DNA from: Rhodoferax sp. | GTDB taxonomy: Bacteria; Pseudomonadota; Gammaproteobacteria; Burkholderiales; Burkholderiaceae_C | DNA: 64,000 bases | Reading direction: 5' to 3' | NCBI GenBank assembly: GCA_031291295.1 | Contig: JARLJI010000058.1 | Location: forward strand, 108,123 to 172,122 | Shown: positions 4,504 to 56,715 of the stretch, in pieces | Layout of the letters: every line of letters begins with the position of its first letter | Position numbering within the stretch: the first letter of the stretch is position 1 | Made by a program: the position numbers and the translations under genes | The notes under the pieces: model-generated | Database searches by the model: none | Seen by the model: the letters and a program-made list of their open reading frames with translations, nothing else | Told to the model about the DNA's origin: nothing

Positions 4504-4518
4504 ACAGCGTCCAGACAA

Positions 4519-4550
4519 CAAAAAAGCCACTGAATTCTCAGTGGCTTGTA
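4519..4550. terminator. Palindromic terminator between rimO and tRNA-Leu, probably bidirectional
   Basis: The 8-bp perfect stem GCCACTGA/TCAGTGGC with a 4-nt loop is flanked by A-runs on the left and T-rich sequence on the right. It can stop rimO transcripts from one side and tRNA-Leu transcripts, which converge on it, from the other. Confidence 0.8.
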
Positions 4551-4571
4551 TGTATAAAAATTAATTTATAT

Positions 4572-6959
<2,388 letters not shown>

Positions 6960-40527: not shown

Positions 40528-41018
40528 ACATTCTCCCAGCCAACTATGCCAACCCGATCCACGCCCGCGCGCTGGTGACGCTGCTCGACGCCTATGCCCG
40601 CGATCCCGCCGGTGGCGGCGAGCCGCTGAGCGACTTCACCAAGGCGAACTTCGTGCGTGAGTTGGCAGCGCGGCCGCAGGCCTTCAGCGTGCTGGCGTTC
40701 GATGGCGCTGATGTCGAAAGTGCCGTGCCGGTCGGGCTGGTGAATTGCATCGAGGGTTTTTCCACCTTTGCCTGCCGGCCACTGGTCAACGTGCACGACG
40801 TGGTGGTGGCGGCCAGCCACCGGGGGCGGGGCATCGCAGCGCTGATGCTGGCCGAGGTGGAGCGCATCGCGCGCGGGCGCGGCGCCTGCAAGCTCACGCT
40901 GGAGGTGCTGTCCGGCAACGCCGGCGCGCGCAGGCTGTACGAGCGCGTGGGCTTTGCCGGCTATCAACTGGACCCGGCCATGGGGCAGGCGCAGTTTTTG
41001 CAAAAATGGCTGGCGTGA
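40524..41018 (+). CDS. GNAT-family N-acetyltransferase
   Basis: The 164-residue protein has the GNAT fold with the acetyl-CoA pyrophosphate loop ASHRGRGIAALML (R/QxxGxG/A) near residue 98 and a C-terminal NAGARRLYERVGF. The substrate is unknown; single-domain GNATs act on anything from antibiotics to protein N-termini. The start codon GTG overlaps the stop of the small upstream ORF. The ATG of the next, apparently broken gene lies inside its 3' end. Confidence 0.85.
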   Translation: MNILPANYANPIHARALVTLLDAYARDPAGGGEPLSDFTKANFVRELAARPQAFSVLAFDGADVESAVPVGLVNCIEGFSTFACRPLVNVHDVVVAASHRGRGIAALMLAEVERIARGRGACKLTLEVLSGNAGARRLYERVGFAGYQLDPAMGQAQFLQKWLA

Positions 41019-41574
41019 CTTCGCGCTCAAGCCAGCAGCAACGCGAAACACGCGATGGGGGCAGCAGGGCCGCCGTGGCTCTGGCGCTTGGGATCGCCTT
41101 CTTGACGGGTGCGAGCCTGTCATGCCGTCGCTGCAGGTGGCCTCGGGCGGGTTCTGGGGCGGCAGCGCGGGGCTGGAGACCGGCGACACCTGGTTTGCCG
41201 GGGCCGGGCTGGGCCGCACCAATCTGCGCGACTATGCGAATCTCAACTTCGATCCGAACGATGCCTGGATGCTGTGGGGCGGCTATCGCTGGAGCCAGAG
41301 CCGGTCGCTGTCGCTGCAGGTGGTGCGCGACAACCGGCAGAACCCGAGCCAGCAGAATGTGCACCTGCTGTACCGCACACCGGTGGCGGACCAGCGCCTG
41401 CTGACGTTCGACCTGCTGGCCAAAACCGGGCTGGTCGATGGCGCCCCCATTCACCGCCTGGGCCTGTCGGTCACCTACGACTGGCACCAGTACTTTGTGC
41501 GGTTGGCCTACGATCCCGACGTGAACTTCACGCCGCAGGACATGTGGCGGCTGTCGGTGGGCTCGCGGTTTTAG
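41006..41574 (+). pseudogene. Frameshifted outer-membrane-type protein
   Basis: The ATG at 41006 opens a frame with a good signal peptide (charged n-region, then AVALALGIAFLTGASLS) that soon runs into nonsense. From about 41115 another frame continues as MPSLQVASGGFWGG and ends at 41574 in LSVGSRF, the terminal phenylalanine pattern of outer-membrane barrels. It is rich in alternating aromatic/polar strands. The simplest reading is a single-base frameshift around 41110-41122 in a gene of about 188 codons. Alternatively a leaderless product starts at ATG 41122. No function is known. Confidence 0.5.
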
Positions 41575-41597: not shown

Positions 41598-41637
41598 TTG
41601 TCACGTAAATGCCATTGAACTGACACAAGCGCGTCAC
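41598..41637 (+). promoter_or_regulatory. Pho-box array upstream of phoX
   Basis: Four 7-bp half-sites start exactly 11 bp apart: TTGTCAC (41598), ATGCCAT (41609), CTGACAC (41620) and GCGTCAC (41631). The PhoB consensus is CTGTCAY repeats spaced by 4 bp. The array lies 46 bp before the phoX start. Confidence 0.7.
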
Positions 41638-41682
41638 TGTCAGCGTTCAAGCTTCCCGGATCGACTAGCCGTGGAGTTGGAA

Positions 41683-43599
41683 ATGAGCAAGGGTTTTGGC
41701 AAGTGCTTTGAGCCGGATGACGGCGTGAATGACGCGCCCAACCCCTCCATTCATGAGGTGGACAGCGGCCGGCGCCATGTTTTTAAATGCACCACGGCCG
41801 CCGTGGCATTGCTGTTGGGCTCGCACACCTGGGGCGCGAGCGCGGGCACAGGCAAGCCGCTCGGCTTTACCGGCGTGCCGGTGTCGGTGGCAGACACCTT
41901 GACCGTGCCGGTTGAATACGAGGCGCAGGTGTTGTGCCGATGGGGCGATGCCATCGGGTCGGCGGCGGGATCGCCCGCCTTTGAACTGGACGGCTCCAAC
42001 ACTTGGCAGGAGCAGTCGCTGCAGGCGGGCATGCACCACGACGGCATGGAGTTTTTCCCGCTGGACCAGGACCCGCGGCACGGCCTGCTGGCCATCAACC
42101 ACGAATACACCGACGACGGCCTGCTGCACGTCGATGGCATGAAAACCTGGAGCGCCGACAAAGTGCGCAAGTCGCAGGCGGCGCACGGCGTGAGCGTGGT
42201 CGAAGTGGTGGAGCGCGCAGGCGTCTGGCAGGTGATGCCCCATTCGATGTACGCCCGGCGCATCACGGCCAGCACGCCCATGCGGCTCAGCGGCCCGGCG
42301 GCCGGCCACGATCTGCTTAAAACGGCTGCCGACCCGTCGGGCACACGCTCGCTCGGCACGCTCAACAATTGCGCGGCGGGCCAGACCCCGTGGGGCACCT
42401 ACCTGAGCTGCGAAGAGAACTGGAACGGCTATTTCTCCTCGCGGCAAAACCCCAGCGCCGACGAGCTGCGCTACGGGCTGGGCCCCAACGGCTGGGGCTA
42501 CCGCTGGCACGAGCATGACGAGCGCTTCGACGCCGCCAAGCATCCCCATGAGCCGCACCGTTTCGGCTGGGTAGTGGAGATCGACCCGATGGACCCGACC
42601 CAGACGCCCGTCAAGCACACCGCGCTGGGCCGCTTCAAGCACGAGGGCGCTACCACGACCCTCAGCAAGGACGGCCGCGCGGTGGTCTACATGGGGGACG
42701 ACGAACGCTTTGAATATATCTACAAGTTTGTCAGCCGCGACCGGGTGGCGCCGGGCGGCTACCAGGCCAACCGCCACGTGCTGGACCACGGCACGCTGTA
42801 CGTGGCGCGCTTCGATGCGCAGGGCCATGGCCGCTGGCTGCCGCTGCTGCATGGGCAAAACGGCTTGAGTGCCGAGCGGGGTTTTGCCAGCCAGGCCGAG
42901 GTGCTGATCCGCTGCCGCCAGGCCGCCGACGTGGCGGGCGCCACCAAGATGGACAGGCCCGAGTGGATCGCGGTGCACCCGCAAACCGGCGAGGTGTTTG
43001 TGACGCTCACCAACAATGACCAGCGCGGCCAGCCGGGACGCGGCGCGGATGACGCCAACCCGCGTGGCGACAACATCATGGGCCACATCATCCGCTGGCG
43101 CGAGGGCACGACGCAGCACGGCGACGCGGGCGCCGGCGAGTTTCGCTGGATGCACTTCGCGCTGGCGGGTGATCCGAATGCCGACAAGGTCGGGTACCGC
43201 GGCACGATCCTGGGTGACATGTATGGCTGTCCGGACGGTCTCAAGGTCGATGCCGGGGGCCTGCTCTGGATCCAGACCGATGTTTCCACTTCGGCGATGC
43301 ACCAGGGGGCCTACCGGGGCCTGGGCAACAACATGATGCTGTGCGCCGACCCGTCCACGGGCGAGACCAAGCGGTTTCTGACCGGCCCATCGGGCTGCGA
43401 GATCACCGGCATCACTTTCACGCCGGATCGCCGTGCCGTATTCATCAACATCCAGCACCCCGGTGAGACGGCCAGCGAACGCAGCGACCCCGACCGACCG
43501 CAAGCGGTGAGCCGCTGGCCGGATGGGCCTGCGGGGGGACGCCCACGCTCTGCCACCGTGGCCATCCGCCGCAAGGATGGCGGCATTGTCGGCACCTGA
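41683..43599 (+). CDS. phoX: PhoX-type alkaline phosphatase (DUF839)
   Basis: PhoX enzymes are exported calcium/iron phosphatases that release phosphate from organic esters during phosphate starvation. The 638-residue protein has an extended N-terminus, a Tat-like RRHVF motif near residue 30, a hydrophobic stretch, and a cleavage region near WGASAG. The body carries EFFPLDQDPRHGLLAINHEY, GTYLSCEENWNGYF, VYMGDDERFEYIYKF and CEITGITFTPD, all typical of the family. The ATG at 41683 follows GTGGAGTTGG and is preferred to the GTG at 41671. The Pho-box array upstream fits PhoB control. Confidence 0.88.
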   Translation: MSKGFGKCFEPDDGVNDAPNPSIHEVDSGRRHVFKCTTAAVALLLGSHTWGASAGTGKPLGFTGVPVSVADTLTVPVEYEAQVLCRWGDAIGSAAGSPAFELDGSNTWQEQSLQAGMHHDGMEFFPLDQDPRHGLLAINHEYTDDGLLHVDGMKTWSADKVRKSQAAHGVSVVEVVERAGVWQVMPHSMYARRITASTPMRLSGPAAGHDLLKTAADPSGTRSLGTLNNCAAGQTPWGTYLSCEENWNGYFSSRQNPSADELRYGLGPNGWGYRWHEHDERFDAAKHPHEPHRFGWVVEIDPMDPTQTPVKHTALGRFKHEGATTTLSKDGRAVVYMGDDERFEYIYKFVSRDRVAPGGYQANRHVLDHGTLYVARFDAQGHGRWLPLLHGQNGLSAERGFASQAEVLIRCRQAADVAGATKMDRPEWIAVHPQTGEVFVTLTNNDQRGQPGRGADDANPRGDNIMGHIIRWREGTTQHGDAGAGEFRWMHFALAGDPNADKVGYRGTILGDMYGCPDGLKVDAGGLLWIQTDVSTSAMHQGAYRGLGNNMMLCADPSTGETKRFLTGPSGCEITGITFTPDRRAVFINIQHPGETASERSDPDRPQAVSRWPDGPAGGRPRSATVAIRRKDGGIVGT

Positions 43600-43609
43600 T
43601 GCATTTCCC

Positions 43610-43634
43610 AAGCCCCGCCCTCCGGGGCTTTTTT
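43610..43634 (+). terminator. Intrinsic terminator between phoX and olsB
   Basis: AAGCCCCG pairs with CGGGGCTT around a 5-nt loop, with a T-run at the 3' side. Only 41 bp separate it from olsB, so olsB needs read-through or a promoter in that short gap. Confidence 0.85.
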
Positions 43635-43675
43635 ACAACTGAATGAAGCATTGAAAACTGTTGAAGGAGTGAAAA

Positions 43676-44524
43676 ATGAAAGAACTACCGACCCCGACCT
43701 TTGCACTGTCTCCGATCTCCTTGCCCAGGGGGTCACTTCATCGACGCAATCTACCGGTTGATGATGCGCAAAGCCGGGCCATCGTTGAGACGACACGCAG
43801 CGGCATCTCGGTGTCGTGGGCCCGCCATCAGGACGAAGTCCGGCAAGCGCAGCGGCTGAGGTTCAATGTCTTCGCGGGCGAAATGGGCGCGCGGCTGGAC
43901 ACGCCGCTGGCCGGGCACGACATGGACCTGTTCGACGACTACTGCGAGCACCTGCTGGTGCGCGATGAGGCCACACGGGAAGTCGTGGGCACCTACCGGG
44001 TGCTGACACCGGCCCAGGCCCAGCGCGTCGGCAGCACCTACAGCGATCTGGAATTCGACCTGACACGGCTGCGCAGTCTGCGCTCGCGCATGGTTGAGTT
44101 GGGCCGCAGCTGCGTGCATGCCGATCATCGCCACGGCGGCGTGATTCTGGCGTTGTGGGGGGCGCTGGCCGAGTTCATGGTGCGCAACCGGCTCGACACC
44201 ATGATTGGCTGCGCCAGCATTCCCATGCTGCACAACGGTGCCATCAGTGGCGACGCGGCGGCCAGCATCTGGCACCAGCTCAGGCAGACCCATCTGGCGC
44301 CGGTCGCAGACCATGTGTTGCCGCGTTTGCCGCTGCCCGTCGACGAGCTGGACGGCACGCTCGATATAGAGCCTCCTGCGCTGATCAAGGGCTATTTGCG
44401 CCTGGGTGCCAAGGTGCTCGGCGCGCCGGCCTGGGACCCCGACTTCAATACGGCCGATCTGCCCATGCTCATGCGCATTGCCGACCTGCCGCCGCGCTAC
44501 CGAAAACACTTTCTGGGGGCCTGA
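43676..44524 (+). CDS. olsB: Ornithine N-acyltransferase OlsB (ornithine lipid synthesis)
   Basis: OlsB transfers a 3-hydroxyacyl chain from ACP to the alpha-amino group of ornithine, the first step to phosphorus-free ornithine lipids. The 282-residue protein has the OlsB/hemolysin-type GNAT core: LRFNVFAGEMGARLD, FDDYCEHLLVRD, VVGTYRVL, MVELGRSCVHADHR and the GCASIPM motif, and ends with YLRLGAKVLGAPAWDPDFN. AAGGAG lies 7 nt before the ATG. Its stop overlaps plcP by one base. The OlsA acyltransferase needed to finish the lipid is not in the window. Confidence 0.85.
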   Translation: MKELPTPTFALSPISLPRGSLHRRNLPVDDAQSRAIVETTRSGISVSWARHQDEVRQAQRLRFNVFAGEMGARLDTPLAGHDMDLFDDYCEHLLVRDEATREVVGTYRVLTPAQAQRVGSTYSDLEFDLTRLRSLRSRMVELGRSCVHADHRHGGVILALWGALAEFMVRNRLDTMIGCASIPMLHNGAISGDAAASIWHQLRQTHLAPVADHVLPRLPLPVDELDGTLDIEPPALIKGYLRLGAKVLGAPAWDPDFNTADLPMLMRIADLPPRYRKHFLGA

Positions 44525-45387
44525 TGCGTACCACCTTCGAGGCACTGGGCGCATGGGGCCACGGCTTCGCGCCCGACGACGCGGACGACCGCGACGATGC
44601 GGTGGCCGAGCGACGCTACCGCGCGATCTTTATCTCAGACCTGCATCTGGGCACGCCGGGCTGCCAGGCTGTGGCCTTGCTGGCGTTCCTGAAAGCCCAT
44701 CCCAGCGACTACCTGTACCTGGTGGGCGACATCGTCGACGGCTGGCAGCTGCGCCGCAAGTGGTACTGGCCGCAGTCGCACAACGACGTGGTGCAAAAAC
44801 TGCTGCGCCGCGCGCGCAGGGGCTGCCGGATTATCTATGTGCCCGGCAACCACGACGAGTTCGCGCGTGGCTTCATGGGCCACCGGTTTGGCGGCATCGA
44901 GGTCATCGAGGAAGCCGTCCACACCACGACGGCCGGGCTCAAGCTGTGGGTCATTCACGGTGACTACTTCGATGGCGTGATCCAGTGCGCCAAGTGGCTG
45001 GCGTATCTCGGCGACAACCTGTATGAATTCACGCTCAAGCTGAATCGCCATCTCAACACCTTGCGCGCCCGGCTGGGCCTGCCGTACTGGTCGCTGTCGG
45101 CCTACCTCAAGCACAAGGTCAAGAAGGCGCTGAACTATGTGACCGACTTTGAAGTGGCGGTGGCCAGCGAGGCGCGGCGCCGTGGTCATCAAGGCGTTGT
45201 CTGCGGCCACATCCACCGCGCCGAGATGCGCGACATCGACGGCACGCTGTACTGCAACGACGGCGATTGGGTAGAGAGCCGCACGGCGCTGGTCGAGCAC
45301 TTCGATGGCCGCCTGGAACTGGTGCACTGGGCACCCTCGCACGAAACGCAGAATCGCGAACCCATGACAAGGGAGATGGCAACATGA
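44524..45387 (+). CDS. plcP: PlcP-like phospholipase C / metallophosphoesterase
   Basis: The 287-residue calcineurin-like phosphoesterase has all metal motifs: DLHLG (about residue 38), GDIVDGW (67), GNHDE (108), HGD (145) and GHIH (228). It is often annotated as UDP-2,3-diacylglucosamine diphosphatase (LpxH-like). However, the stretches RRKWYWPQSHNDVVQKL and YCNDGDWVESRTALVEH match my recollection of PlcP, which strips head groups from phospholipids to give diacylglycerol during phosphate starvation. Position between olsB and a GT4 glycosyltransferase supports PlcP over lipid A synthesis. There is no signal peptide. The stop overlaps the next ATG as ATGA. Confidence 0.75.
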   Translation: MRTTFEALGAWGHGFAPDDADDRDDAVAERRYRAIFISDLHLGTPGCQAVALLAFLKAHPSDYLYLVGDIVDGWQLRRKWYWPQSHNDVVQKLLRRARRGCRIIYVPGNHDEFARGFMGHRFGGIEVIEEAVHTTTAGLKLWVIHGDYFDGVIQCAKWLAYLGDNLYEFTLKLNRHLNTLRARLGLPYWSLSAYLKHKVKKALNYVTDFEVAVASEARRRGHQGVVCGHIHRAEMRDIDGTLYCNDGDWVESRTALVEHFDGRLELVHWAPSHETQNREPMTREMAT

Positions 45388-46487
45388 AAATGGCCCTGAT
45401 TACCGACGCATGGCAGCCGCAGGTCAATGGCGTGGTCACCACGCTGGTCGAACTGGTGCTGGAGCTTACGACGCTGGGCCATCAGGTCGAGGTGATTCAC
45501 CCGGGTTTGTTCAAGAACCGCCCCTGTCCCGGTTATGCGGGCATCGACCTGGCGGTGCGCCCGAAACGCCTGTTGGGTGCCAGGCTCGATGCCCTGCAGC
45601 CCGAGGCCATCCACATTGCGACGGAAGGCCCGCTGGGCTGGGCGGCGCGTAGCTACTGCGTCAAGCGGGGCTTGTCTTTCACGACGGCGTTTCATACCAA
45701 GTTTCCTGAAATTCTCAATGCCGCTTTGCGGGTGCCGCTGTCCTGGGGTTACGCGCTGTTCCGCCATTTCCACCGGCCTTCTTCGGGTGTGATGGTGCCC
45801 ACCCAGGGCGTGCTGCGCATGCTGGAGCAGCGTGGCTTTCGCAACCTGCGGAGCTGGACGCATGGCGTGGATACACGGTTGTTCGAGTTCCGGACCGAGG
45901 CAAGGATATACCCGCCCGTGGGTGTGATGGCGCACCCGGTGTCGCTGTTTGTCGGGCGTGTGTCGTACGAGAAGAACATTGAAGCCTTCCTGCGGCTGGA
46001 CCTGCCCGGTACCAAGGTGGTTTGCGGGGTGGGTCCGCTGCAAGCCTCGCTCAAGGAGCGCTTCCCTCACGTGCGCTGGCTGGGCGTGCTGCCGCGCGAC
46101 GAGTTGGCCAAAGTCTATGCGGCGGCCGACGTTTTTGTCTTTCCGAGCAAGTCCGAAACTTTTGGCCTGGTCATGCTGGAAGCCATGGCTTGCGGCACGC
46201 CGGTGGCGGCCTATCCGGTGGACGGGCCGCTCGAAGTTCTGGGGCAAACCGATGCCGGCAATAATGGGGCTGGTCTGGGCGGTGTGATGAACGACGACCT
46301 GCAACAGGCCTGCTACAGCGCACTGGCGCTCCCCAGGTACCAGGCCCGTGCCCGGGCGCTGGAGTTCAGTTGGGCGCATGCAACACAGCTCTTTCTCGGG
46401 AATTTGGTGCCAGTGCGTCAAGGCATGGCTTGCGCCAAGTCAAATTTGGCGCAGGGCGTTGTCACGCCTTTGTCATCAAATCGGTAA
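45384..46487 (+). CDS. agt: GT4 glycosyltransferase, probable Agt-type glycolipid synthase
   Basis: The 367-residue GT-B enzyme has the N-terminal ITDAWQPQVNGVVTTL and the C-terminal ExxxxxxxE motif in SETFGLVMLEAMACGTPV. The closest type I recognise is the Agt/mannosyltransferase group that adds sugar to diacylglycerol, making glycolipids that replace phospholipids. PlcP, its direct neighbour, would supply the diacylglycerol. It starts at the ATGA overlap with plcP; the longer ORF from 45267 is not needed. Sugar donor is unknown. The ppk Pho box lies inside its last codons. Confidence 0.7.
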   Translation: MKMALITDAWQPQVNGVVTTLVELVLELTTLGHQVEVIHPGLFKNRPCPGYAGIDLAVRPKRLLGARLDALQPEAIHIATEGPLGWAARSYCVKRGLSFTTAFHTKFPEILNAALRVPLSWGYALFRHFHRPSSGVMVPTQGVLRMLEQRGFRNLRSWTHGVDTRLFEFRTEARIYPPVGVMAHPVSLFVGRVSYEKNIEAFLRLDLPGTKVVCGVGPLQASLKERFPHVRWLGVLPRDELAKVYAAADVFVFPSKSETFGLVMLEAMACGTPVAAYPVDGPLEVLGQTDAGNNGAGLGGVMNDDLQQACYSALALPRYQARARALEFSWAHATQLFLGNLVPVRQGMACAKSNLAQGVVTPLSSNR

Positions 46488-46555: not shown

Positions 46556-48658
46556 ATGAATTCCCAGGCCGTTGTCCCGCAGCCTGCTGCCGAACCGCTC
46601 GCAGTCCCGCTCCTGGATCGCGATCACAGCATTCTTGCGTTCAATGAGCGCGTACTGGATTGGGCGCGCCGGCCCCAGGTGCCGCTGCTGGAGCGGCTGC
46701 GTTATTTGTGCATTGTCTCGTCCAATCTGGATGAATTTTTTGAAATTCGCGCCGAGCCGCACCTGACGGCGTCGCAAAACGCCGACCACAAAGGACTCTA
46801 TACGGTGGAGTCGGTTGAAGCGCTGGCCGCCGCCGCGCACGACCTGGTCGCACGGCAGTACGCGCTGTACAACGACGACCTGATGCCCACCTTTGAAAAG
46901 CACGGCATCAAGATCATCGCGCATGGCGAACGCACCGCCGTCCATCGGGGTTGGGTCAGGCAATACTTCGAGCGCGAAGTGCGCCCGCTGCTCATTCCCG
47001 TGGCGCTCGATCCGGCGCACCCGTTTCCGCAGGTGGCCAACAAATCGCTGAACTTCATCGTGCGGCTTGGCGGCCGCGACGCCTTTGGCCGCGAGAACGA
47101 CATCGCCATCGTCAAGGTGCCGCGTGTGCTGCCGCGCTTCATCCGCATGCCGGGCAAGGTCTCGGGCGGGCGCGTCCTGTTCGTGTCGCTGTCCAGCGTG
47201 ATCCGTGCCAACCTGACAACGCTGTTTCCAGGGCGTGAGGTGGGGCAGTTTTCGCAGTTCCGGGTGACGCGCCATTCGGATCTTGCCGTGGACGAAGACG
47301 ACGTGCAGGACTTGCGCACCGCTTTGCGCCTGGGCTTGCAGCACCGCCACTACGGCCAGGCGGTGCGGCTGGAGGTGTCAACGGGGTGCTCCGAGTACCT
47401 CGCGAGTTTTCTTCTCAAACAGTTCGATTTGCCCGCGCTGGCGCTCTACCGTGTCCATGGTCCGGTGAATCTGGCGCGGCTGACGCAATTGATTGATTTG
47501 ATCGACGAGCCCAAGTTGCTGTTTCCGCCGTTCAAGCCGTCCTATCCGGCGCAACTGGTGCCCGGCCAGTCTTTTTTCGAGCGGCTCAAGCACGGGGATG
47601 TGTCGATTCATCAGCCGTTCGAGAGTTTTGATGCGGTTCTCGCCTTTTTGCGCGAAGCGGCTTATGACCCGCAGGTGCTGGCGATCAAGCAGACGATTTA
47701 TCGAACGGGTGCCGATTCGGAATTGATGGACTTGCTGCGCGAGGCCGTGCGCCGCGGCAAGGAGGTCACGGCCGTAGTGGAGCTCAAGGCCCGGTTTGAC
47801 GAAGAGGCCAATATCAACTGGGCGGAAATGCTCGAATCCATTGGCGCCCAAGTGGTCTACGGCGTGGTGGGGCTCAAGACGCACGCCAAGATGCTGCTGG
47901 TCACGCGCCGGGAAGGTAAAAGCCTGAAGCGCTATGCGCATCTGTCAACCGGCAACTACAACTCGCGCACCGCGCGGCTCTACACCGATGTGAGTTACCT
48001 GACGGCCGATCGACTGCTGACGGCTGATGTCGACAACGTGTTTGTGCATCTGGCGAGCCAGAGCAAGCTGCCCAAACTGAACCGGCTGTGGCTGGCACCG
48101 TTCCAGTTGCAGCGCAAGCTGATCGAGAAGATTGATTCGCTGGGCGAGGGCGCGGCCCAGGGCAAGGCGTCGCGCATTGTCGCCAAGATGAACGCATTGA
48201 CCGACGAGGCGCTGGTCCTGTCGCTGATCAAGGCCTCGCAGCGCGGCGTGAAGATTGACCTGATCGTGCGCGGTGCCTGCACGCTGCCGGCACGGCTGCC
48301 CGGTGTCACCGACAACATCAGGGTGCGCTCGGTGATCGGCCGGTTTCTGGAGCATTCGCGGGTGTTCTATTTCCGCTGCGCGGATGAGGAAGAGCTGTAC
48401 CTGTCCAGCGCCGACTGGATGAACCGCAACATGCTGCGGCGGGTCGAGCTGGCCTGGCCGGTGAGCGACCCTGTCATCCGCCAGCGCATCATCGATGAAT
48501 GCCTGGTGGCTTATTTGCACGATGGCCGCGATGCTTGGGATCTGGGGCCCGATGGCACCTACACGCGGGTTGATGCGACAGGGGAGCACCCGGGACACGG
48601 CGCGCAGGCGGCATTGATGGCGCGCTATGCGGGTGGCGACGCCGTAACCAACGAGTAG
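46556..48658 (+). CDS. ppk: Polyphosphate kinase 1
   Basis: PPK1 polymerises the gamma-phosphate of ATP into polyphosphate. The 700-residue protein has the N-terminal domain (FNERVLDWARRP), the head domain with SSNLDEFFEIR, and two catalytic C-terminal domains. The autophosphorylated His is in VVGLKTHAKMLLV, with STGNYNSRTARLYTD and DWMNRNMLRRVE as further conserved blocks. I start at the ATG at 46556, where family similarity begins, not the ORF start at 46370 inside agt. The Pho box upstream suggests induction by phosphate stress. sixA follows by 8 bp. Confidence 0.96.
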   Translation: MNSQAVVPQPAAEPLAVPLLDRDHSILAFNERVLDWARRPQVPLLERLRYLCIVSSNLDEFFEIRAEPHLTASQNADHKGLYTVESVEALAAAAHDLVARQYALYNDDLMPTFEKHGIKIIAHGERTAVHRGWVRQYFEREVRPLLIPVALDPAHPFPQVANKSLNFIVRLGGRDAFGRENDIAIVKVPRVLPRFIRMPGKVSGGRVLFVSLSSVIRANLTTLFPGREVGQFSQFRVTRHSDLAVDEDDVQDLRTALRLGLQHRHYGQAVRLEVSTGCSEYLASFLLKQFDLPALALYRVHGPVNLARLTQLIDLIDEPKLLFPPFKPSYPAQLVPGQSFFERLKHGDVSIHQPFESFDAVLAFLREAAYDPQVLAIKQTIYRTGADSELMDLLREAVRRGKEVTAVVELKARFDEEANINWAEMLESIGAQVVYGVVGLKTHAKMLLVTRREGKSLKRYAHLSTGNYNSRTARLYTDVSYLTADRLLTADVDNVFVHLASQSKLPKLNRLWLAPFQLQRKLIEKIDSLGEGAAQGKASRIVAKMNALTDEALVLSLIKASQRGVKIDLIVRGACTLPARLPGVTDNIRVRSVIGRFLEHSRVFYFRCADEEELYLSSADWMNRNMLRRVELAWPVSDPVIRQRIIDECLVAYLHDGRDAWDLGPDGTYTRVDATGEHPGHGAQAALMARYAGGDAVTNE

Positions 48659-48666
48659 TCAACACC

Positions 48667-49128
48667 ATGGACCTGATCTTGTGGCGTCACGCGGAAGCGG
48701 AACAATGGGTGGAGGGCTGCAATGACCTGGATCGGTCGCTGACGCAGCGCGGCGAGAAACAGGCTGCCCGCATGGGCGGCTGGCTGGACCGGCAGTTGCC
48801 CGAAGGCGCGCGGATTCTGGTCAGTCCGGCACGGCGTGCCGAGCAGACGGCGCTGGCGCTGGGGCGCAAATACAAGCTGCGGCCCGAACTGGGTCCGGAC
48901 GGCACGCCCGCGCAATTGCTGGAACTGGTGCAGTGGCCCGCCAACAAGTCAACCGTGCTGGTGATCGGGCACCAGCCCACGCTGGGGCAGACCATCTCCC
49001 AATTGCTGGCACTCGGGGCCAGCGAGTGCGTGATGAAAAAGGGCGCGGTCTGGTGGCTGCGCCATCGCGACCGCGAGGGGCAGTCCCAGACCGTGGTGGT
49101 GAGCGTCCAGTCGCCGGAAACCCTTTAA
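48667..49128 (+). CDS. sixA: SixA-type phosphohistidine phosphatase
   Basis: SixA is a small RHG phosphatase that removes phosphate from phosphohistidine in two-component or phosphotransferase proteins. The 153-residue histidine-phosphatase fold starts MDLILWRHAEAE (catalytic RHA/E), with SPARRAEQTA and VIGHQPTLGQ as the second His motif. It is 8 bp after ppk and surely in the same transcript, so its substrate may belong to phosphate metabolism; PPK1 itself has a phosphohistidine. That link is inference. Confidence 0.85.
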   Translation: MDLILWRHAEAEQWVEGCNDLDRSLTQRGEKQAARMGGWLDRQLPEGARILVSPARRAEQTALALGRKYKLRPELGPDGTPAQLLELVQWPANKSTVLVIGHQPTLGQTISQLLALGASECVMKKGAVWWLRHRDREGQSQTVVVSVQSPETL

Positions 49129-49226: not shown

Positions 49227-49598
49227 TCAGGACTGGCTGGGCCGACCGGTCTTGATGGCCGGAACGGCTTCCAGTGCGGTGAGGAAGACTGCATCGGGCA
49301 GCGCGGCCAGGGCTTTGATGCCGGCACGCAGCACTTCGCTCTTCTTCACGGGATGGGCCAGTTTGGCGGCACGCTGCTTCAATTCGTCGAGCACGCCATA
49401 TTCGATCTTGGGGATGGTAAAGCTGTCGCGCACCAGCTTGGGCTTCCTGGCCTTGACGGGCTTGTCGGCGGCCTTGGGTTTGGCAACGACTTTGGCCGCA
49501 GCGGTCTTGGCGGAACTTGCCGCCGGTTTGGCCGGGATTTTTTCAGGATTTGCGGAGGCTGGTTTTTTACGGGTGGCGATTTTTTTGGCGGCGGGCAT
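49227..49598 (-). CDS. Lys/Ala-rich protein with ribbon-helix-helix-like C-terminus
   Basis: The first 55 residues of the 123-residue protein are an extended histone-H1-like tail of K, A and P (AKKIATRKKPAS, AKPKAADKP). The second half, starting VRDSFTIPKIEYGVLDELKQ, has a short strand and two helices with KKSEVLRAGIKALAAL, resembling a ribbon-helix-helix DNA-binding or dimerisation unit. I do not recognise a named family. It sits between the polyphosphate-making and polyphosphate-degrading genes, which raises the idea of a polyphosphate-granule or nucleoid protein. Confidence 0.7.
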   Translation of the reverse strand: MPAAKKIATRKKPASANPEKIPAKPAASSAKTAAAKVVAKPKAADKPVKARKPKLVRDSFTIPKIEYGVLDELKQRAAKLAHPVKKSEVLRAGIKALAALPDAVFLTALEAVPAIKTGRPSQS

Positions 49599-49657: not shown

Positions 49658-51157
49658 TCAGCAGCCTGCGAGTTGCAATGTCCAGGGTGTTTTCTGCCAG
49701 GCTGCCACCTCTTCACGCAGCAGGTGAGCCGACTGTGGAAAGGCCTCGGCCCAGCCCGGGCGGCAGGTCAGTATCAGCCGGTGGTCGGCGCCGGGGCCTG
49801 CCGCGAGCCGCATGCCCCTTAGGTCGGGATCGCGCCGCGCATGGCAAAGAATGACGGCAAGGCGCAGGCACAACAACTGGCGCACAAACAATGTGTCTTC
49901 GAAATCCACCTCCAGCTTGCGCAGCTTGCCGCGGTGCCCCAGCACGAGCAAGCTGAGGCGGTGAAGTTCGGTCAGGGCAAAGCCCAATGCATCGACGTTG
50001 TCCAGGATGTAGGCGCCGTGTTTGTGATAGTCGCTGTGTGAAATCCGGCAGCCAATTTCATGCAATTGGGCGGCCCAATCCAGTTTTCGCAAATTGCTGC
50101 CGGAGCCCGCAGTAGCAGGCCCGCCCTGCAATTGACTGAACAGGTGGCAGGCGACCTTGCTGACGCGCTGGGCCTGCGCGGTGTCAGTTTCGAACTTGTT
50201 GACAAGGCGCTGCACAGTGGCCGAGCGGATGTCGGTCTGCGTCTGCTCACGGTCCAGCAGGTCATACAAGACACCATGCCGCAACGCACCCTGGGCGGCC
50301 TGCATCTTGTCTATGCCAAGCAGGTCGAAAACAGCGCGCAAAACGCTGACACCGCCGCCTATGACGGCGCGACGATCTTCCCTGATGCCGTCAAGCTGCA
50401 AACGGTCAGCGCTCTGCGCCTTGAGCAATCGGGCCAGCAACCAGTCCAGACCTTCGCGTGTGACGGATCCGGCCGGCCAGCCCGCTGCGGTCAGCACGTC
50501 GCCTACGGCGCCAATGGTGCCCGAGGAGCCATAAGCCACCTCCCAGGCATCGCGCCGATAGGCGTTGAGCGCTTCATCGAGCACCGCCTTGGCGGCGATT
50601 TCCGCCATCTGGAACGCACGGGCAGTGAACTGGCCGGCAGGAAAATGTTTCATTGACAAGGTGACGCTGCCGACGCGATACGACTCCACCACGCGGGCGT
50701 CAAACGCGCGGCCCAGAATCAACTCGGTGGAGCGCCCGCCAATGTCCACCACCAGGCGCTTTTCGTCGGATTGTGGCAACAGATGCGCCACGCCCTGGTA
50801 AATCAGCCGGGCTTCTTCGCGCCCCGAAATGACGTCAATCGGGAACCCCAGTATTTCGTGGGCGCGCGTCAGAAATTGGTCACGGTTGCGTGCTTCACGC
50901 AGGGTCTGCGTGGCGACTGCACACACCTGGCCCCGCTTGAAATCTGCCAGGCGTTCACCAAAGCGCGCGAGACAATCCCAGCCTCGCTGCATGGCGAGGG
51001 AGGTCAGGTTGCGCTCGTCGTCCAGCCCGTTACCTAACCGGACCGTTTCCTTCAGGTATTGGACCCGGTGAATCTGTCCGCCCTCGAAGCGGCCGATTTC
51101 AAGGCGAAAGCTGTTGGAGCCCAGGTCCACAGCGGCGAGTCGAGTTCCGTTTTGCAT
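49658..51157 (-). CDS. ppx: Exopolyphosphatase (Ppx/GppA family)
   Basis: This ASKHA-fold enzyme removes terminal phosphates from polyphosphate or converts pppGpp to ppGpp. The 499-residue protein has LAAVDLGSNSFRLEIGR (phosphate loop 1), ISGREEARLIYQG, VVDIGGRSTELILG (loop 2) and YGSSGTIGAVGD, plus a C-terminal HD-like region (LHEIGCRISHSDYHKHG). I start at the ATG at 51157; the ORF runs upstream without support. It is divergent from pstS, and a near-consensus Pho box faces it. Ppx rather than GppA is favoured by context. Confidence 0.93.
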   Translation of the reverse strand: MQNGTRLAAVDLGSNSFRLEIGRFEGGQIHRVQYLKETVRLGNGLDDERNLTSLAMQRGWDCLARFGERLADFKRGQVCAVATQTLREARNRDQFLTRAHEILGFPIDVISGREEARLIYQGVAHLLPQSDEKRLVVDIGGRSTELILGRAFDARVVESYRVGSVTLSMKHFPAGQFTARAFQMAEIAAKAVLDEALNAYRRDAWEVAYGSSGTIGAVGDVLTAAGWPAGSVTREGLDWLLARLLKAQSADRLQLDGIREDRRAVIGGGVSVLRAVFDLLGIDKMQAAQGALRHGVLYDLLDREQTQTDIRSATVQRLVNKFETDTAQAQRVSKVACHLFSQLQGGPATAGSGSNLRKLDWAAQLHEIGCRISHSDYHKHGAYILDNVDALGFALTELHRLSLLVLGHRGKLRKLEVDFEDTLFVRQLLCLRLAVILCHARRDPDLRGMRLAAGPGADHRLILTCRPGWAEAFPQSAHLLREEVAAWQKTPWTLQLAGC

Positions 51158-51296: not shown

Positions 51297-51314
51297 GTGA
51301 CGGGAATATGACAG
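51297..51314 (-). promoter_or_regulatory. Pho box facing ppx
   Basis: Read on the minus strand the sequence is CTGTCAT-ATTC-CCGTCAC, 16 of 18 positions like the E. coli-type consensus in both half-sites. A -10-like TAGGCT follows about 9 nt downstream, and ppx starts 140 nt downstream. Confidence 0.65.
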
Positions 51315-51365: not shown

Positions 51366-51394
51366 TTGTCATATCTTTGTCACATCACCGTCTT
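51366..51394 (+). promoter_or_regulatory. Pho box of the pst operon
   Basis: TTGTCAT-ATCT-TTGTCAC is followed in phase by CCGTCTT, with starts at 51366, 51377 and 51388. A -10-like TACAGT at 51394-51399 lies about 10 nt after the second half-site, the spacing typical for PhoB promoters. pstS starts at 51435. Confidence 0.8.
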
Positions 51395-51434: not shown

Positions 51435-52475
51435 ATGAAGATGAAGTTCAGCGCGACGATGATCAGCCTGGCGGCTGTGTCCCTTGTTTATGCCATGCCC
51501 GCCAACGCACAGAATGTCACTGGTGCCGGATCCACTTTTGGCGCCCCCATCTATTCCAAATGGGCATCCGACTACAACAAGATAACCGGCGTCAAGATCA
51601 ACTATCAGTCCGTGGGTTCAGGCGCGGGCATGCAACAAATCGATGCCAAGACCGTCGATTTTGGCGCCTCCGACATGCCGCTCAAAGACGAGGATCTGGC
51701 CAAAAAAGGGGAAATGCAATTCCCGACGGTGATTGGCGGTGTGATCCCCGTCGTGAATGTCAAAGGTATCGCGCCCGGGCAGCTGAAGCTCAATGGTCAG
51801 GTGCTCGGCGACATTTACCTGGCCAAGATCACCAAATGGAATGATCCGGCCATCAAGGCGCTGAACCCGACGCTGGCCTTGCCGGACGCCACGATCACGC
51901 CGGTTCGCCGCGCTGATGGTTCGGGTACGACGTTCATCTTCACCAACTACCTGAGCAAGGTCAATGCCGAGTGGAAGGCGAAGGTCGGTGAGGGCACCGC
52001 GGTGAACTGGCCCGCCGGCGCCGGCGGCAAGGGCAATGAAGGGGTCGCCGCGTTCGTGGGGCGCTTGCCCAACTCGATCGGCTATCTGGAATACGCCTAT
52101 GTGAAGCAAAACAAGATGACGTATGCGTTGATGCAAAACTCTGCTGGCAACTTCGTGTCGCCGGATGCCGCTGCTTTCAAGGCGGCCGCCGCAGGTGCCG
52201 ACTGGACGAAGAGCTTCTACCAGATCCTGACCGACGAGCCCGGCAAGGATTCATGGCCGATCACGGGTGCCACGTTCATCTTGCTGCACAAGGTACAGGA
52301 CAAACCGGCGCAAGGTGCTGTTACGCTGAAGTTTTTTGAATGGGCCTACCAGAATGGTGACCAGGCGGCGGAGGGCCTTGACTATGTTCCGTTGCCAGCA
52401 AGCGTGAAGGCGATCGTCCAGAAGAGCTGGGGCGAGATCAAGGACGCATCGGGCAAGGCTGTCGCTTACAAATAA
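51435..52475 (+). CDS. pstS: Phosphate ABC transporter, periplasmic binding protein
   Basis: PstS captures phosphate in the periplasm and hands it to PstCA. The 346-residue precursor has a signal peptide ending near MPANAQ. The phosphate-binding TGAGSTFGAPIYSKW, VGSGAGMQQ and RADGSGTTFIFTNYLS motifs follow. I use the ATG at 51435 after GAGAGG; the ORF start at 51327 falls in the promoter. It heads pstSCAB-phoU-phoB-phoR under the Pho box. Confidence 0.97.
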   Translation: MKMKFSATMISLAAVSLVYAMPANAQNVTGAGSTFGAPIYSKWASDYNKITGVKINYQSVGSGAGMQQIDAKTVDFGASDMPLKDEDLAKKGEMQFPTVIGGVIPVVNVKGIAPGQLKLNGQVLGDIYLAKITKWNDPAIKALNPTLALPDATITPVRRADGSGTTFIFTNYLSKVNAEWKAKVGEGTAVNWPAGAGGKGNEGVAAFVGRLPNSIGYLEYAYVKQNKMTYALMQNSAGNFVSPDAAAFKAAAAGADWTKSFYQILTDEPGKDSWPITGATFILLHKVQDKPAQGAVTLKFFEWAYQNGDQAAEGLDYVPLPASVKAIVQKSWGEIKDASGKAVAYK

Positions 52476-52526
52476 GCAGAAAATAGGCAAATCTTCTCAG
52501 GTTTCATGGCGCAAGGAGTGTTCCCC

Positions 52527-53555
52527 ATGTCCTCTACACTTCCAGCAAACCAGGCTTTCGACCTTTCCGGCAAGGCCGCTGAACGTGCCATGACCAACCC
52601 GCCACCGGCCAAATCCGCCCGCTCAGGCCCGCTGCTGGACCGGCTGTTCGGCTGGGCCGCTGCCGGGGCTGCCTGGTTGACCCTGGCATTGTTGTTCGGC
52701 ATTCTGGTATCGCTGGTGATTGGCGCGTGGCCTGCTGTCGAAAAATACGGCCTGGGGTTTCTGACCAGCACCGTCTGGGATCCGGTGCAAAACGAGTATG
52801 GCGGGCTGGTCATGATCTATGGCACGCTGGCCACCTCGTTCATCGCGCTGCTGATTGCCGTGCCTGTCAGCTTCGGCATTGCCCTGTTTCTGACGGAGCT
52901 GTCACCCGCTTGGCTCAAGCGGCCCCTGGGGACCGCGATCGAGTTGCTGGCCGCCGTGCCCTCCATCGTGTACGGCATGTGGGGACTGCTGGTGTTCAGT
53001 CCGATTCTGGCCACTTATGTGCAGCAGCCCCTGCAAACCGTGTTCGGCGGTGTGCCCTACCTGGGGGCCCTGTTTTCGGGGCCGCCGGTGGGTATCGGTA
53101 TTCTGTCGGCCGGCATCATCCTGGCGATCATGATCATTCCGTTCATCGCGGCAGTGATGCGCGACGTGTTCGAGGTGACGCCGGTGCTGCTCAAGGAATC
53201 GGCCTACGGCCTGGGCGCGACCACTTGGGAGGTGGTGTTCAAGGTGGTACTGCCCTACACCAAGTCCGGCGTGATGGGTGGCATCATGCTGGGTTTGGGC
53301 CGCGCGCTGGGCGAGACCATGGCGGTGACCTTCGTGATCGGCAACTTCAACCAGCTCGATTCACTGAGTGTGTTCCAGGCGGCCAACAGTATCACTTCGG
53401 CGCTGGCCAACGAATTCGCCGAGGCCGCTCCAGGCCTGCACCAGGCGGCCCTGATTTACTTGGGATTGGTCTTGTTCTTCATTACGTTCGTGGTGCTGGC
53501 GCTGTCCAAAATCCTGCTGGCGCAGCTGCAGAAAAATGAGGGGACCCGCACATGA
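52527..53555 (+). CDS. pstC: Phosphate ABC transporter permease PstC
   Basis: PstC is one of the two membrane subunits of the high-affinity phosphate importer. The 342-residue protein has a cytoplasmic N-terminal stretch of about 45 residues, then six membrane helices with the inner-membrane permease loop [26 protein letters not shown] 9 nt upstream supports the ATG at 52527 over 52506. It overlaps pstA by ATGA. Confidence 0.96.
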
Positions 53556-54415
53556 GCAGCGCCCACCAGCCGGATGTGCGCCTGGCCAAGTTCGCGCACC
53601 GCAAACGGGTGAACAAAATCGCTCTGACGTTGTCGCTGGCGGCCATGTCGTTTGGCTTGTTCTGGCTGATATGGATTTTGTGGGAAACGGTTCGCCTGGG
53701 CGTCGGTGGACTGGTGCTGGCCACGTTCACCCAAATGACGCCGCCCCCCAACGAGGCGGGTGGCCTCGCGAACGCCATCTACGGCTCGCTGGTCATGGTT
53801 GCCGCGGCCACTTTTATGGGTACGCCCGTTGGCATCATGGCCGGCATCTATCTGGCCGAATACAACCCGAAGGGCTGGCTGGCTTCCGTCACGCGGTTTG
53901 TCAATGATATTTTGCTGTCGGCGCCTTCCATTGTGATCGGGCTCTTTATCTATGCCGTCGTCGTGGCCCGCTTCAAGTCATTTTCCGGCTGGGCCGGTGC
54001 GCTGGCGCTGGCGCTGATCGTGATCCCGGTCGTCATTCGCACGACGGAAAACATGCTGCAGCTGGTGCCGGCGGGTCTGCGCGAAGCCGCCTACGCGCTG
54101 GGCGCGCCGAAGTGGAAGGTGATTCTCGGCATTACCCTGCGGGCCGCGCGTGCCGGCGTGGTGACCGGGGTGCTGCTGGCGGTGGCGCGTATTGCGGGCG
54201 AGACGGCGCCGCTGCTGTTCACGGCGCTGAGCAACCAGTTCTGGACCTCCGATCTGGACCAGCCCATGGCCAGCCTGCCGGTGACCATCTTCAAGTTCGC
54301 CATGAGCCCCTATGAGAACTGGCAAAAGCTGGCGTGGGCCGGCGTGTTCCTGATCACGATGGCCGTGCTGGGCCTGAACATTCTGGCGCGCGTCATGACG
54401 CGCAACAAGCACTGA
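53552..54415 (+). CDS. pstA: Phosphate ABC transporter permease PstA
   Basis: The partner permease of PstC has 287 residues and about six helices. The EAA-like loop is [19 protein letters not shown], and [16 protein letters not shown] is a PstA signature. Translation is coupled to pstC through the ATGA overlap. pstB begins 36 bp after it. Confidence 0.96.
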
Positions 54416-54451
54416 TCACTGCCCGGCCAACCATCCCAACCAAGGCGAGCG

Positions 54452-55231
54452 ATGCAACCCATGACAATGCCCCAAGAAAAATCGAAAATTTCGGTCAAGA
54501 ACCTGAACTTCTATTACGGCAAGTTCCACGCCCTCAAGGGCATCAACCTGGAAATTCCGGAAAAGAAAGTGACCTCGTTCATCGGCCCCTCCGGCTGCGG
54601 CAAGTCGACGCTGCTGCGCGTCTTCAACCGCATGTACGCGCTCTACCCCGAGCAGCGCGCCGAAGGCGAGATCATGCTCGATGGCGAGAATCTGCTGACC
54701 TCCAGGCAGGACATTGCCCTGCTTCGCGCCAAAGTTGGCATGGTTTTTCAGAAGCCGACGCCGTTTCCGATGTCGATTTACGACAATATCGTGTTTGGCG
54801 TGAAGCTGTTCGAAAACCTCAATGCCGCGGACATGGAAGAGCGCGTCGAATGGGCCCTGCGAAAGGCCGCGCTGTGGACCGAAGTGAAGGACAAGCTGAA
54901 CCAGAGCGGCGCCAGCCTGTCGGGTGGCCAGCAGCAACGCCTGTGCATTGCGCGCGGCATTGCGATCAAGCCCGAAATTCTGTTGCTCGATGAACCCTGC
55001 TCGGCACTGGACCCGATTTCCACGGCCAAAATCGAGGAGTTGATTGCCGAGCTCAAAGACGACTACACGGTGGTCATCGTGACGCACAACATGCAGCAGG
55101 CCGCGCGTTGCAGCGATTACACGGCCTACATGTACCTGGGCGATCTGGTCGAGTTCGGCATGACCGAAGAGTTGTTCTTCAAACCGCGGCGCAAAGAGAC
55201 CGAGGACTACATCACCGGCCGGTTCGGGTGA
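54452..55231 (+). CDS. pstB: Phosphate ABC transporter ATP-binding protein PstB
   Basis: The ATPase of the Pst importer has 259 residues with Walker [10 protein letters not shown], the Q-loop region [14 protein letters not shown], signature LSGGQQQRL, and Walker [28 protein letters not shown] contains the switch His. It also relays phosphate status to PhoR through PhoU in known systems. Two further ATGs lie within nine codons of the chosen start. Confidence 0.97.
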
Positions 55232-55248
55232 TTTTCAAAGGAGCAATC

Positions 55249-55950
55249 ATGGCCGACAAGCATCTTTCGACCCAGTTCGACAGCGAACTCAATGGCGTTT
55301 CCTCGCGCGTGATGGAAATGGGCGGGCTGGCCGAATCCCAGATCCACCAGGCGATTTATGCACTTTCGCAGTTCAGTGCGGAGGCGGCCCAGAAGGTGAT
55401 CGAGATGGAGCCGCGCGTGAACGCGATGGAGATCGAGATCGACCGCGAGCTATCGTCCATCATCGCGCGGCGCCAGCCAACGGCGCGCGACCTGCGCTTG
55501 CTCATTGCCATCTCGAAGACCACCGCCAACCTGGAGCGCGTCGGCGACGAGGCCGAAAAAATTGCGCGCATGGTCAAATCCATCATCGAGAGCGGCGCGG
55601 CGCGCACCCTGCCGGCGTCCGAGTTGCGCGTTGCCGCCGATCTGGCGTCCGGCCTGCTGCGCAAGGCGCTGGATGCGTTTGCGCGGCTGGACACGGCCGT
55701 GGCCGTGACCATCCTGAAGGAAGACGATTTGATCGACCGCGAGTTCGATGGTTTTGTGCGCAAGCTCATCACCTACATGATGGAAGATCCGCGCACGATT
55801 TCCGCGAGCCTGGACTTGCTGTTCCTGGCCAAGGCGATCGAGCGCATTGGCGACCATGCCAAAAACATTGCCGAATTCATTATCTACATCGTGAAGGGCG
55901 CGGATGTACGCCACACCACGATGGAGCAAGTCGAGTCGGCCGTGCAATGA
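55249..55950 (+). CDS. phoU: Phosphate signalling protein PhoU
   Basis: PhoU links Pst transporter state to the PhoR kinase and keeps the regulon off in phosphate excess. The 233-residue all-helical protein has the two PhoU repeats, including ERVGDEAEKIARM in the first and ERIGDHAKNIAEF in the second, the metal-binding E/DxxxD patterns. AAAGGAG lies 6 nt before the ATG at 55249. The stop overlaps phoB as ATGA. Confidence 0.97.
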   Translation: MADKHLSTQFDSELNGVSSRVMEMGGLAESQIHQAIYALSQFSAEAAQKVIEMEPRVNAMEIEIDRELSSIIARRQPTARDLRLLIAISKTTANLERVGDEAEKIARMVKSIIESGAARTLPASELRVAADLASGLLRKALDAFARLDTAVAVTILKEDDLIDREFDGFVRKLITYMMEDPRTISASLDLLFLAKAIERIGDHAKNIAEFIIYIVKGADVRHTTMEQVESAVQ

Positions 55951-56654
55951 AGCACTTTCCCCGCGTCCTGATTGTGGAAGACGAGCCCGCGATTGCCGAG
56001 TTGATCGCGGTCAATCTGCGGCACAACGGCTTCCAGCCGATCTGGGCCGAGGAGGGCGTCGCAGCCCAGCGCGAGCTCGACGCCGTGTTGCCTGATGTGA
56101 TCCTGCTGGACTGGATGCTGCCGGGGCAAAGCGGCGTGGCGCTGGCACGCCGGTGGCGCGCCGATGCGCGCACCAAGGGCATCCCGATCCTGATGCTGAC
56201 GGCCCGCGGGGACGAACCCGACAAGGTGGCGGGGCTCGACGCGGGCGCGGACGACTACATCACCAAGCCCTTTTCGACGCAGGAGCTGCTGGCCCGCATC
56301 CGTGCCGTGCTGCGCCGGCGCGCTCCCGAGCAGGTCGATGTCAGCATCACGATTGGTGCCTTGGCGCTGGACTCGGCAACGCACCGGGTGTCCTGGCAGG
56401 GCCAGGTTCTCAAGATCGGGCCTACCGAGTTCAAGCTGTTGAATTACCTCATGAAGCACCGCGAGCGCGTGCACAGCCGCGCGCAACTGCTGGACAAAGT
56501 CTGGGGCGACCACGTGTTCATCGAGGAGCGCACCGTCGACGTGCACGTCAAGCGCCTGCGTGAAGCGCTGGGGGCCGCTGGTGCCATGGTGGAGACCGTG
56601 CGCGGCGCCGGCTACCGTCTGACGGCGCAAGCGCAGGTGGCCAGCCAGGCCTGA
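55947..56654 (+). CDS. phoB: Phosphate regulon response regulator PhoB
   Basis: PhoB activates Pho-box promoters when phosphorylated. The 235-residue protein has a receiver domain with acidic pair VEDEPA, phosphoacceptor Asp in ILLDWMLPG and Lys in YITKPFS. The OmpR-type winged helix ends TVDVHVKRLREALG and VRGAGYRL. The target boxes near phoX, ppk, ppx and pstS all fit this regulator. Confidence 0.97.
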   Translation: MKHFPRVLIVEDEPAIAELIAVNLRHNGFQPIWAEEGVAAQRELDAVLPDVILLDWMLPGQSGVALARRWRADARTKGIPILMLTARGDEPDKVAGLDAGADDYITKPFSTQELLARIRAVLRRRAPEQVDVSITIGALALDSATHRVSWQGQVLKIGPTEFKLLNYLMKHRERVHSRAQLLDKVWGDHVFIEERTVDVHVKRLREALGAAGAMVETVRGAGYRLTAQAQVASQA

Positions 56655-56715
56655 ACCGCGAGATCGGCGTTGCCGCGGCAGTGCCCGCGCCGCCATCTCC
56701 CCTCACAATCGCGCC

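Follow-up and report, generated by a model that had tools for sequence, protein, structure and literature searches.

In Pseudomonas aeruginosa (PA3219-PA3218) and Methylosinus trichosporium OB3b, plcP is followed by agt, and both bacteria make glycolipids at low phosphate, and ornithine lipid too (PMC8528852, PMC9239053). The function of the P. aeruginosa plcP-agt1 pair has been demonstrated genetically; its coding sequences overlap, and a Pho box lies upstream (PMC8528852). In both species the ornithine-lipid genes form a separate locus. Those of P. aeruginosa (olsBA) and Sinorhizobium meliloti (olsB) encode N-acyltransferases of the OlsB family (PF13444), and PlcP and the OlsAB proteins are absent from a P. 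putida phoBR mutant at low phosphate (PMC5082522). In an account of marine heterotrophs there are six types of plcP neighbourhood, in which plcP adjoins a glycosyltransferase and has Pho boxes upstream; its passages on neighbourhoods mention glycosyltransferases and betaine-lipid genes beside plcP, and not olsB (PMC4796936). Acinetobacter baumannii has a Pho-controlled olsB, with olsA located elsewhere and not induced, and no plcP-agt has been described with it (PMC11828411).

The 64-kb stretch of Rhodoferax sp. DNA analysed here (the window) holds olsB, plcP and agt in a single block. Between glmM and a set of polyphosphate and pst-pho genes lie, all on the (+) strand, phoX (alkaline phosphatase PhoX, 41683–43599; PF05787, 577 bits), olsB (ornithine, or amino acid, N-alpha-acyltransferase, 43676–44524; PF13444, 118 bits), plcP (predicted phospholipase C-type metallophosphoesterase, 44524–45387; PF12850/PF00149, Metallophos) and agt (predicted GT4 diacylglycerol glycosyltransferase, 45384–46487; PF13439 and PF00534). 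The reading frames of olsB, plcP and agt are all intact and, as the original prediction had it, joined by stop-start overlaps: the TGA of olsB and the ATG of plcP have base 44524 in common, and the 4 bases ATGA at 45384–45387 are common to plcP and agt. The span 41598–46487 takes in phoX as well, and no other PhoB-type operator in the window is as strong as the one that lies exactly at its left end. Pfam matches also confirmed the predicted neighbours, namely phoX, ppk (polyphosphate kinase 1, 46556–48658, +, four PP_kinase domains), ppx (Ppx/GppA exopolyphosphatase, 49658–51148, −, PF02541) and pstS-pstC-pstA-pstB-phoU-phoB-phoR (51435–58116, +), in which pstS, pstC, pstA, pstB, phoB and phoR were matched and phoU was assigned solely by its ORF and its position in the gene order. 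A sixA-like histidine phosphatase gene (48667–49128, +, PF00300) follows ppk and is a neighbour kept in relatives. Between sixA and ppx, an Ala/Lys/Pro-rich protein of ~123 residues is encoded on the (−) strand (49227–49598) and is conserved there in many relatives.

The order of PlcP then Agt is that of P. aeruginosa and M. trichosporium, the overlap of their coding sequences is seen in P. aeruginosa too, and a glycosyltransferase beside plcP recalls the marine neighbourhoods, whose upstream Pho boxes have a putative counterpart here. Unlike in P. aeruginosa and M. trichosporium, however, olsB opens the same overlapping set, inside a ppk/ppx/pst-pho cluster. P. aeruginosa has olsBA; here the glycolipid operon starts with olsB, and olsA lies unlinked elsewhere in the genome, a likeness to A. 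baumannii, for which no plcP-agt has been described. We consider it very likely that olsB-plcP-agt serves Comamonadaceae as an operon for membrane remodelling in phosphate starvation.

The host genome assembly is fragmented (265 contigs) and carries 5.6% contamination. The block is nevertheless not an assembly artefact or contamination, because the identical gene order, from glmM through pstB, recurs in a congeneric sister species whose genome is free of contamination (G410, 0%). Identity to this sister species is 95% for phoX, 99% for olsB, 95% for plcP and 93% for agt, with dN/dS values of 0.12, 0.09, 0.20 and 0.28, respectively, and olsB, plcP and agt are under purifying selection. phoX occupies the same position 5′ of olsB in the sister species and in a Polaromonas MAG. 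An ORF just 5′ of the phoX operator (40954–41574), which is without a Pfam match, has diverged or become fragmented in G410.

The phosphoesterase had been predicted to be PlcP-like, and standard annotation to hide the genes. RefSeq/PLSDB records do name PlcP ‘UDP-2,3-diacylglucosamine diphosphatase’, which is the LpxH name, OlsB ‘GNAT family N-acyltransferase’ and Agt ‘glycosyltransferase family 1 protein’. Were the database name correct, the phosphoesterase would be a second LpxH and the operon would serve the envelope or LPS, through a UDP-diacylglucosamine hydrolase and an LPS-type glycosyltransferase. PlcP and LpxH do share a superfamily, and the metal-ligand motifs DLH, GD, GNHD, HGD and GHIH of the window PlcP align with both. 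The best matches of its predicted structure (mean pLDDT 74) are likewise LpxH, with global TM-scores near 0.5, but a match of this kind indicates the superfamily only and therefore does not discriminate between the two. On curated LpxH models the window PlcP gave weak matches that do not reach the cut-offs (43.7 bits on NF003743, cut-off 134; 37.4 bits on TIGR01854, cut-off 190), whereas a true LpxH is present elsewhere in the host genome (233 bits against the cut-off of 134), adjoining ppiB in the usual ppiB-lpxH context; the original prediction had named such a separate LpxH as a point to check. Canonical LpxH was also found in 58 of 60 sampled genomes of the order. The window protein is 53% identical to P. 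aeruginosa PlcP, a reference taken from the PA3219-PA3218 locus and identified by context (it adjoins Agt and a cyclase-domain gene), 50% identical to S. meliloti PlcP and only 22–26% identical to LpxH. In a tree of 34 proteins PlcP was split from LpxH with 100/100 support, and the window protein fell on the PlcP side, which includes the characterised P. aeruginosa and S. meliloti PlcP. With the Pho-cluster setting also against it, a second LpxH is extremely improbable, and we assign the window phosphoesterase as PlcP, of predicted phospholipase C type. The PlcP of a Polaromonas MAG is 84% identical to it, and relatives with names put the window within Comamonadaceae, close to Polaromonas.

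The identification of Agt as a GT4 glycosyltransferase likewise held, given its two Pfam domains and 49% identity to P. aeruginosa Agt1. It is predicted to glycosylate diacylglycerol; whether the sugar is glucose or glucuronate is not readable from sequence. The claim that both membrane charge types become phosphorus-free was overstated, as it hinges on this head-group sugar, neutral in the case of glucose and anionic in that of glucuronate. Agt might instead glycosylate an acceptor other than diacylglycerol, with PlcP mainly scavenging phosphate and the diacylglycerol being recycled by a kinase. Several relatives do carry olsB-plcP without agt, and a dgkA gene lies next to plcP-agt in Cupriavidus, Burkholderia and Paraburkholderia, yet the identity to Agt1 within the same gene pair as in P. 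aeruginosa, and the position of agt immediately 3′ of plcP in most loci, argue for diacylglycerol as the acceptor and make another one very unlikely. A prokaryotic diacylglycerol kinase is encoded elsewhere in the host genome. At the loci of the three genera named and of Caballeronia (L139, L143, L145-L154, L159-L161) the dgkA-like kinase lies shortly 3′ of plcP-agt, and olsB was not seen within the stretch examined.

For OlsB, the predicted identity as an OlsB-type acyltransferase is supported by PF13444 and by its best named NCBIfam families, two OlsB equivalogs that scored 157 and 142 bits, far above GlsB. These scores lie under the respective cut-offs of 350 and 320, which belong to clade-specific models (Rhodobacter- and Brucella-type). 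The identity of the window OlsB to that of S. meliloti is 35%. We regard it as decidedly unlikely that OlsB, acting beside PlcP and Agt as proposed, acylates lysine, glutamine or a mixture, such that the aminolipid would be something other than ornithine lipid alone. Homologues of OlsB have been described whose product is glutamine lipid (GluB) or lysine lipid (A. baumannii OlsB) (PMC11631085, PMC11828411), and the sub-threshold model scores would allow for such a departure, but the OlsB equivalogs remain the best matches, and Burkholderia strains bearing olsB make ornithine lipid (PMC7814305, PMC11631085). The A. baumannii OlsB, from a species with an aminolipid-making OlsB, is only 26% identical to the window protein.

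OlsB alone yields only the lyso form of the lipid. The proposal that the three-gene set makes ornithine lipid therefore falls short: OlsA is needed as well, and the sole OlsA-like gene is on another contig, so olsB-plcP-agt is not sufficient. Two PF01553 acyltransferases are encoded in the host genome, of which one is PlsC by context (it adjoins gmhB) and the other is the OlsA candidate (L011), scoring 134 bits to the OlsA equivalog NF052553. Elsewhere olsA adjoins olsB in at least ten loci, and two further Comamonadaceae-type loci (L084, L086) have olsA-olsB-plcP-agt in a row. In one genome (G031) a divergent olsA stands opposite plcP-agt-dgkA-olsB, a gene order also present in G076. Through guilt by association, these olsA-containing neighbourhoods speak for the remodelling reading of the operon.

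The likely working of the locus, drawn from characterised relatives of PlcP, Agt, OlsB and OlsA and of their low-phosphate induction (PMC8528852, PMC9239053, PMC5082522, PMC11828411), would begin when phosphate is scarce and phosphorylated PhoB, a product of the neighbouring pst-phoU-phoB-phoR set, switches the locus on. PlcP would then split glycerophospholipids, giving diacylglycerol and a phosphorylated head group, and Agt would join the diacylglycerol to a sugar to give a glycolipid. OlsB would place a 3-hydroxyacyl chain on ornithine or a similar amino acid, and the unlinked OlsA would add the second acyl chain to complete ornithine lipid. By this flux, phospholipids would be swapped for glycolipids and aminolipids, and the freed phosphate would pass to core needs and to the store governed by the neighbouring ppk and ppx.

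PhoB-type operators were found around the cluster. The one 5′ of phoX (41598–41637, +) has four half-sites at 11-bp spacing (TTGTCACGTAA ATGCCATTGAA CTGACACAAGC GCGTCAC) and, with a score of 40/48, outscores every other four-half-site match across the 64 kb. For Pho boxes of two half-sites, the top three in the window lie 5′ of pstS (51366–51383, +), of ppx (51297–51314, −, on the ppx side of the ppx-pstS intergenic region) and of ppk (TTGTCACGCCTTTGTCAT, 46459–46476, +, at the 3′ end of agt); each scores 21/24, for which 0.1 matches are expected per shuffled window. Directly 5′ of olsB the two-half-site scan returned only weak matches, and in this genome no four-half-site operator was found ≤250 bp from olsB. 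An RNA fold of the gap between phoX and olsB gave a terminator-like hairpin (AGCCCCG-CCCTC-CGGGGCT followed by TTTTT, 43611–43634, +), which escaped the promoter/terminator consensus scan. Four related loci (L110, L083, L085, L142) have a comparable hairpin and run of Ts 5′ of olsB. Because of the hairpin between them and the lack of an operator at olsB, co-transcription of phoX and olsB, and with it a single Pho-controlled phoX-olsB-plcP-agt unit, is plausible only.

The same two features would fit a cluster that is not one transcription unit, in which phoX stops at the terminator, olsB-plcP-agt is served by a weak or constitutive promoter, ppk uses its own Pho box and remodelling is not tightly phosphate-controlled; some bacteria do make ornithine lipid without phosphate control (PMC11631085). 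The consensus scan, however, showed no convincing sigma-70 site in the 40 bases that separate the hairpin from olsB, and operator positions in related loci also speak against separate units. Where relatives lack phoX at this position, a four-half-site operator is typically located 50–150 bp 5′ of olsB. Polaromonas-type loci keep one operator ahead of the whole block, either 5′ of phoX (L110, L089) or 5′ of a small ORF (L083, L085, L142). The operator score threshold was reached by 79% of all relatives tested versus 9% of random stretches (Mann–Whitney P 4e-13, only a guide as the loci are related). On this evidence we think separate units somewhat improbable, and the most economical interpretation is activation by PhoB of a unit that has an interposed gene and a partial terminator, in which transcripts from phoX would read through into olsB.

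The small ORF that takes the place of phoX 5′ of olsB in Comamonadaceae relatives is conserved and encodes ~60 residues (core LRILRCTAKALASSPGGLRFQPGARPWLEGL), with no Pfam or NCBIfam match. It occurs at L085:6860-7042, in L083 and L142, and in two genomes at G439 C1:3237092-3237226 and G464 C4:48381-48521; in L083, L085 and L142 it sits between the four-half-site Pho operator and olsB. Among 151 family genomes sampled it was found in two, directly 5′ of olsB both times. Building on the PhoB-activated unit, we tentatively suggest, while thinking it rather doubtful in this full form, that one four-half-site PhoB operator in Comamonadaceae locks glycolipid and aminolipid synthesis into one overlapping operon, which would fix the proportion in which neutral or anionic and zwitterionic lipids, all free of phosphorus, are made. 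phoX (in the window and Polaromonas) or the undescribed ~60-residue protein (in related loci) would be interposed before olsB, and the terminator would meter the transcript reaching the lipid genes.

We found PlcP in 93 of 200 genomes of the order, full OlsB in 138 and both in 78. The two genes lie ≤10 kb apart in 20 of these 78, drawn from ten families, where ~0.5 would be expected by chance; this count ignores relatedness, and the ten families alone are far above chance. Linkage so far above expectation rules out chance adjacency of olsB and plcP. Outside the order, the genes are as close in 3 of 12 gammaproteobacterial genomes that have both. The order olsB-plcP-agt-ppk recurs in Acidovorax kalamii, A. 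radicis, Acidovorax sp. CF316, Limnohabitans, Polaromonas and Curvibacter, and exact olsB-plcP-agt occurs in a different setting in two further genomes (G007, G178). The one-operon arrangement is thus standard in Comamonadaceae and no peculiarity of this genome, contrary to the original view that it was notable in a freshwater or soil betaproteobacterium. The three genes need not act as one unit, because some relatives lack agt (L096, L102, L104, L106, L135) and one genome (G049) has olsB-agt adjacent at the syntenic place (C1:2531395-2533153) with plcP remote from it (C1:4192207-4192968). This remote PlcP groups in the tree with the Variovorax/Ideonella type of PlcP.

A search of open-access papers by gene name found no description of an olsB-plcP-agt operon. 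The combined operon is a new arrangement of known parts, for the novelty of which this literature negative is weak evidence; the enzymes and the Pho logic are already known, and knowledge of the enzymes is unchanged. The published work found deals mainly with marine bacteria, rhizobia, pseudomonads and methanotrophs. From the locus, phosphorus-free membranes are to be expected in bacteria of fresh water and soil (Limnohabitans, Polaromonas, Acidovorax, Curvibacter), a trait masked in databases by the LpxH name. The recurring linkage ties aminolipid synthesis to glycolipid synthesis genetically, and the linked genes offer a clean marker of lipid remodelling for freshwater metagenomes.

A MAG titled Klebsiella pneumoniae (L138, CAMDGF010000010.1) encodes a PlcP 67% and an Agt 48% identical to those of the window. 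The list in which it appears otherwise consists mostly of betaproteobacteria, and the MAG has probably been mistitled. Some P. aeruginosa plasmid records carry a chromosomal-type plcP-agt1 segment (L165, NZ_CP137508.1 23367-32074). On a plasmid of Microvirga sp. VF16 (L166, ~4001-5390) a truncated plcP match is convergent with olsB, which hints at the same olsB-plcP linkage in an alphaproteobacterium.
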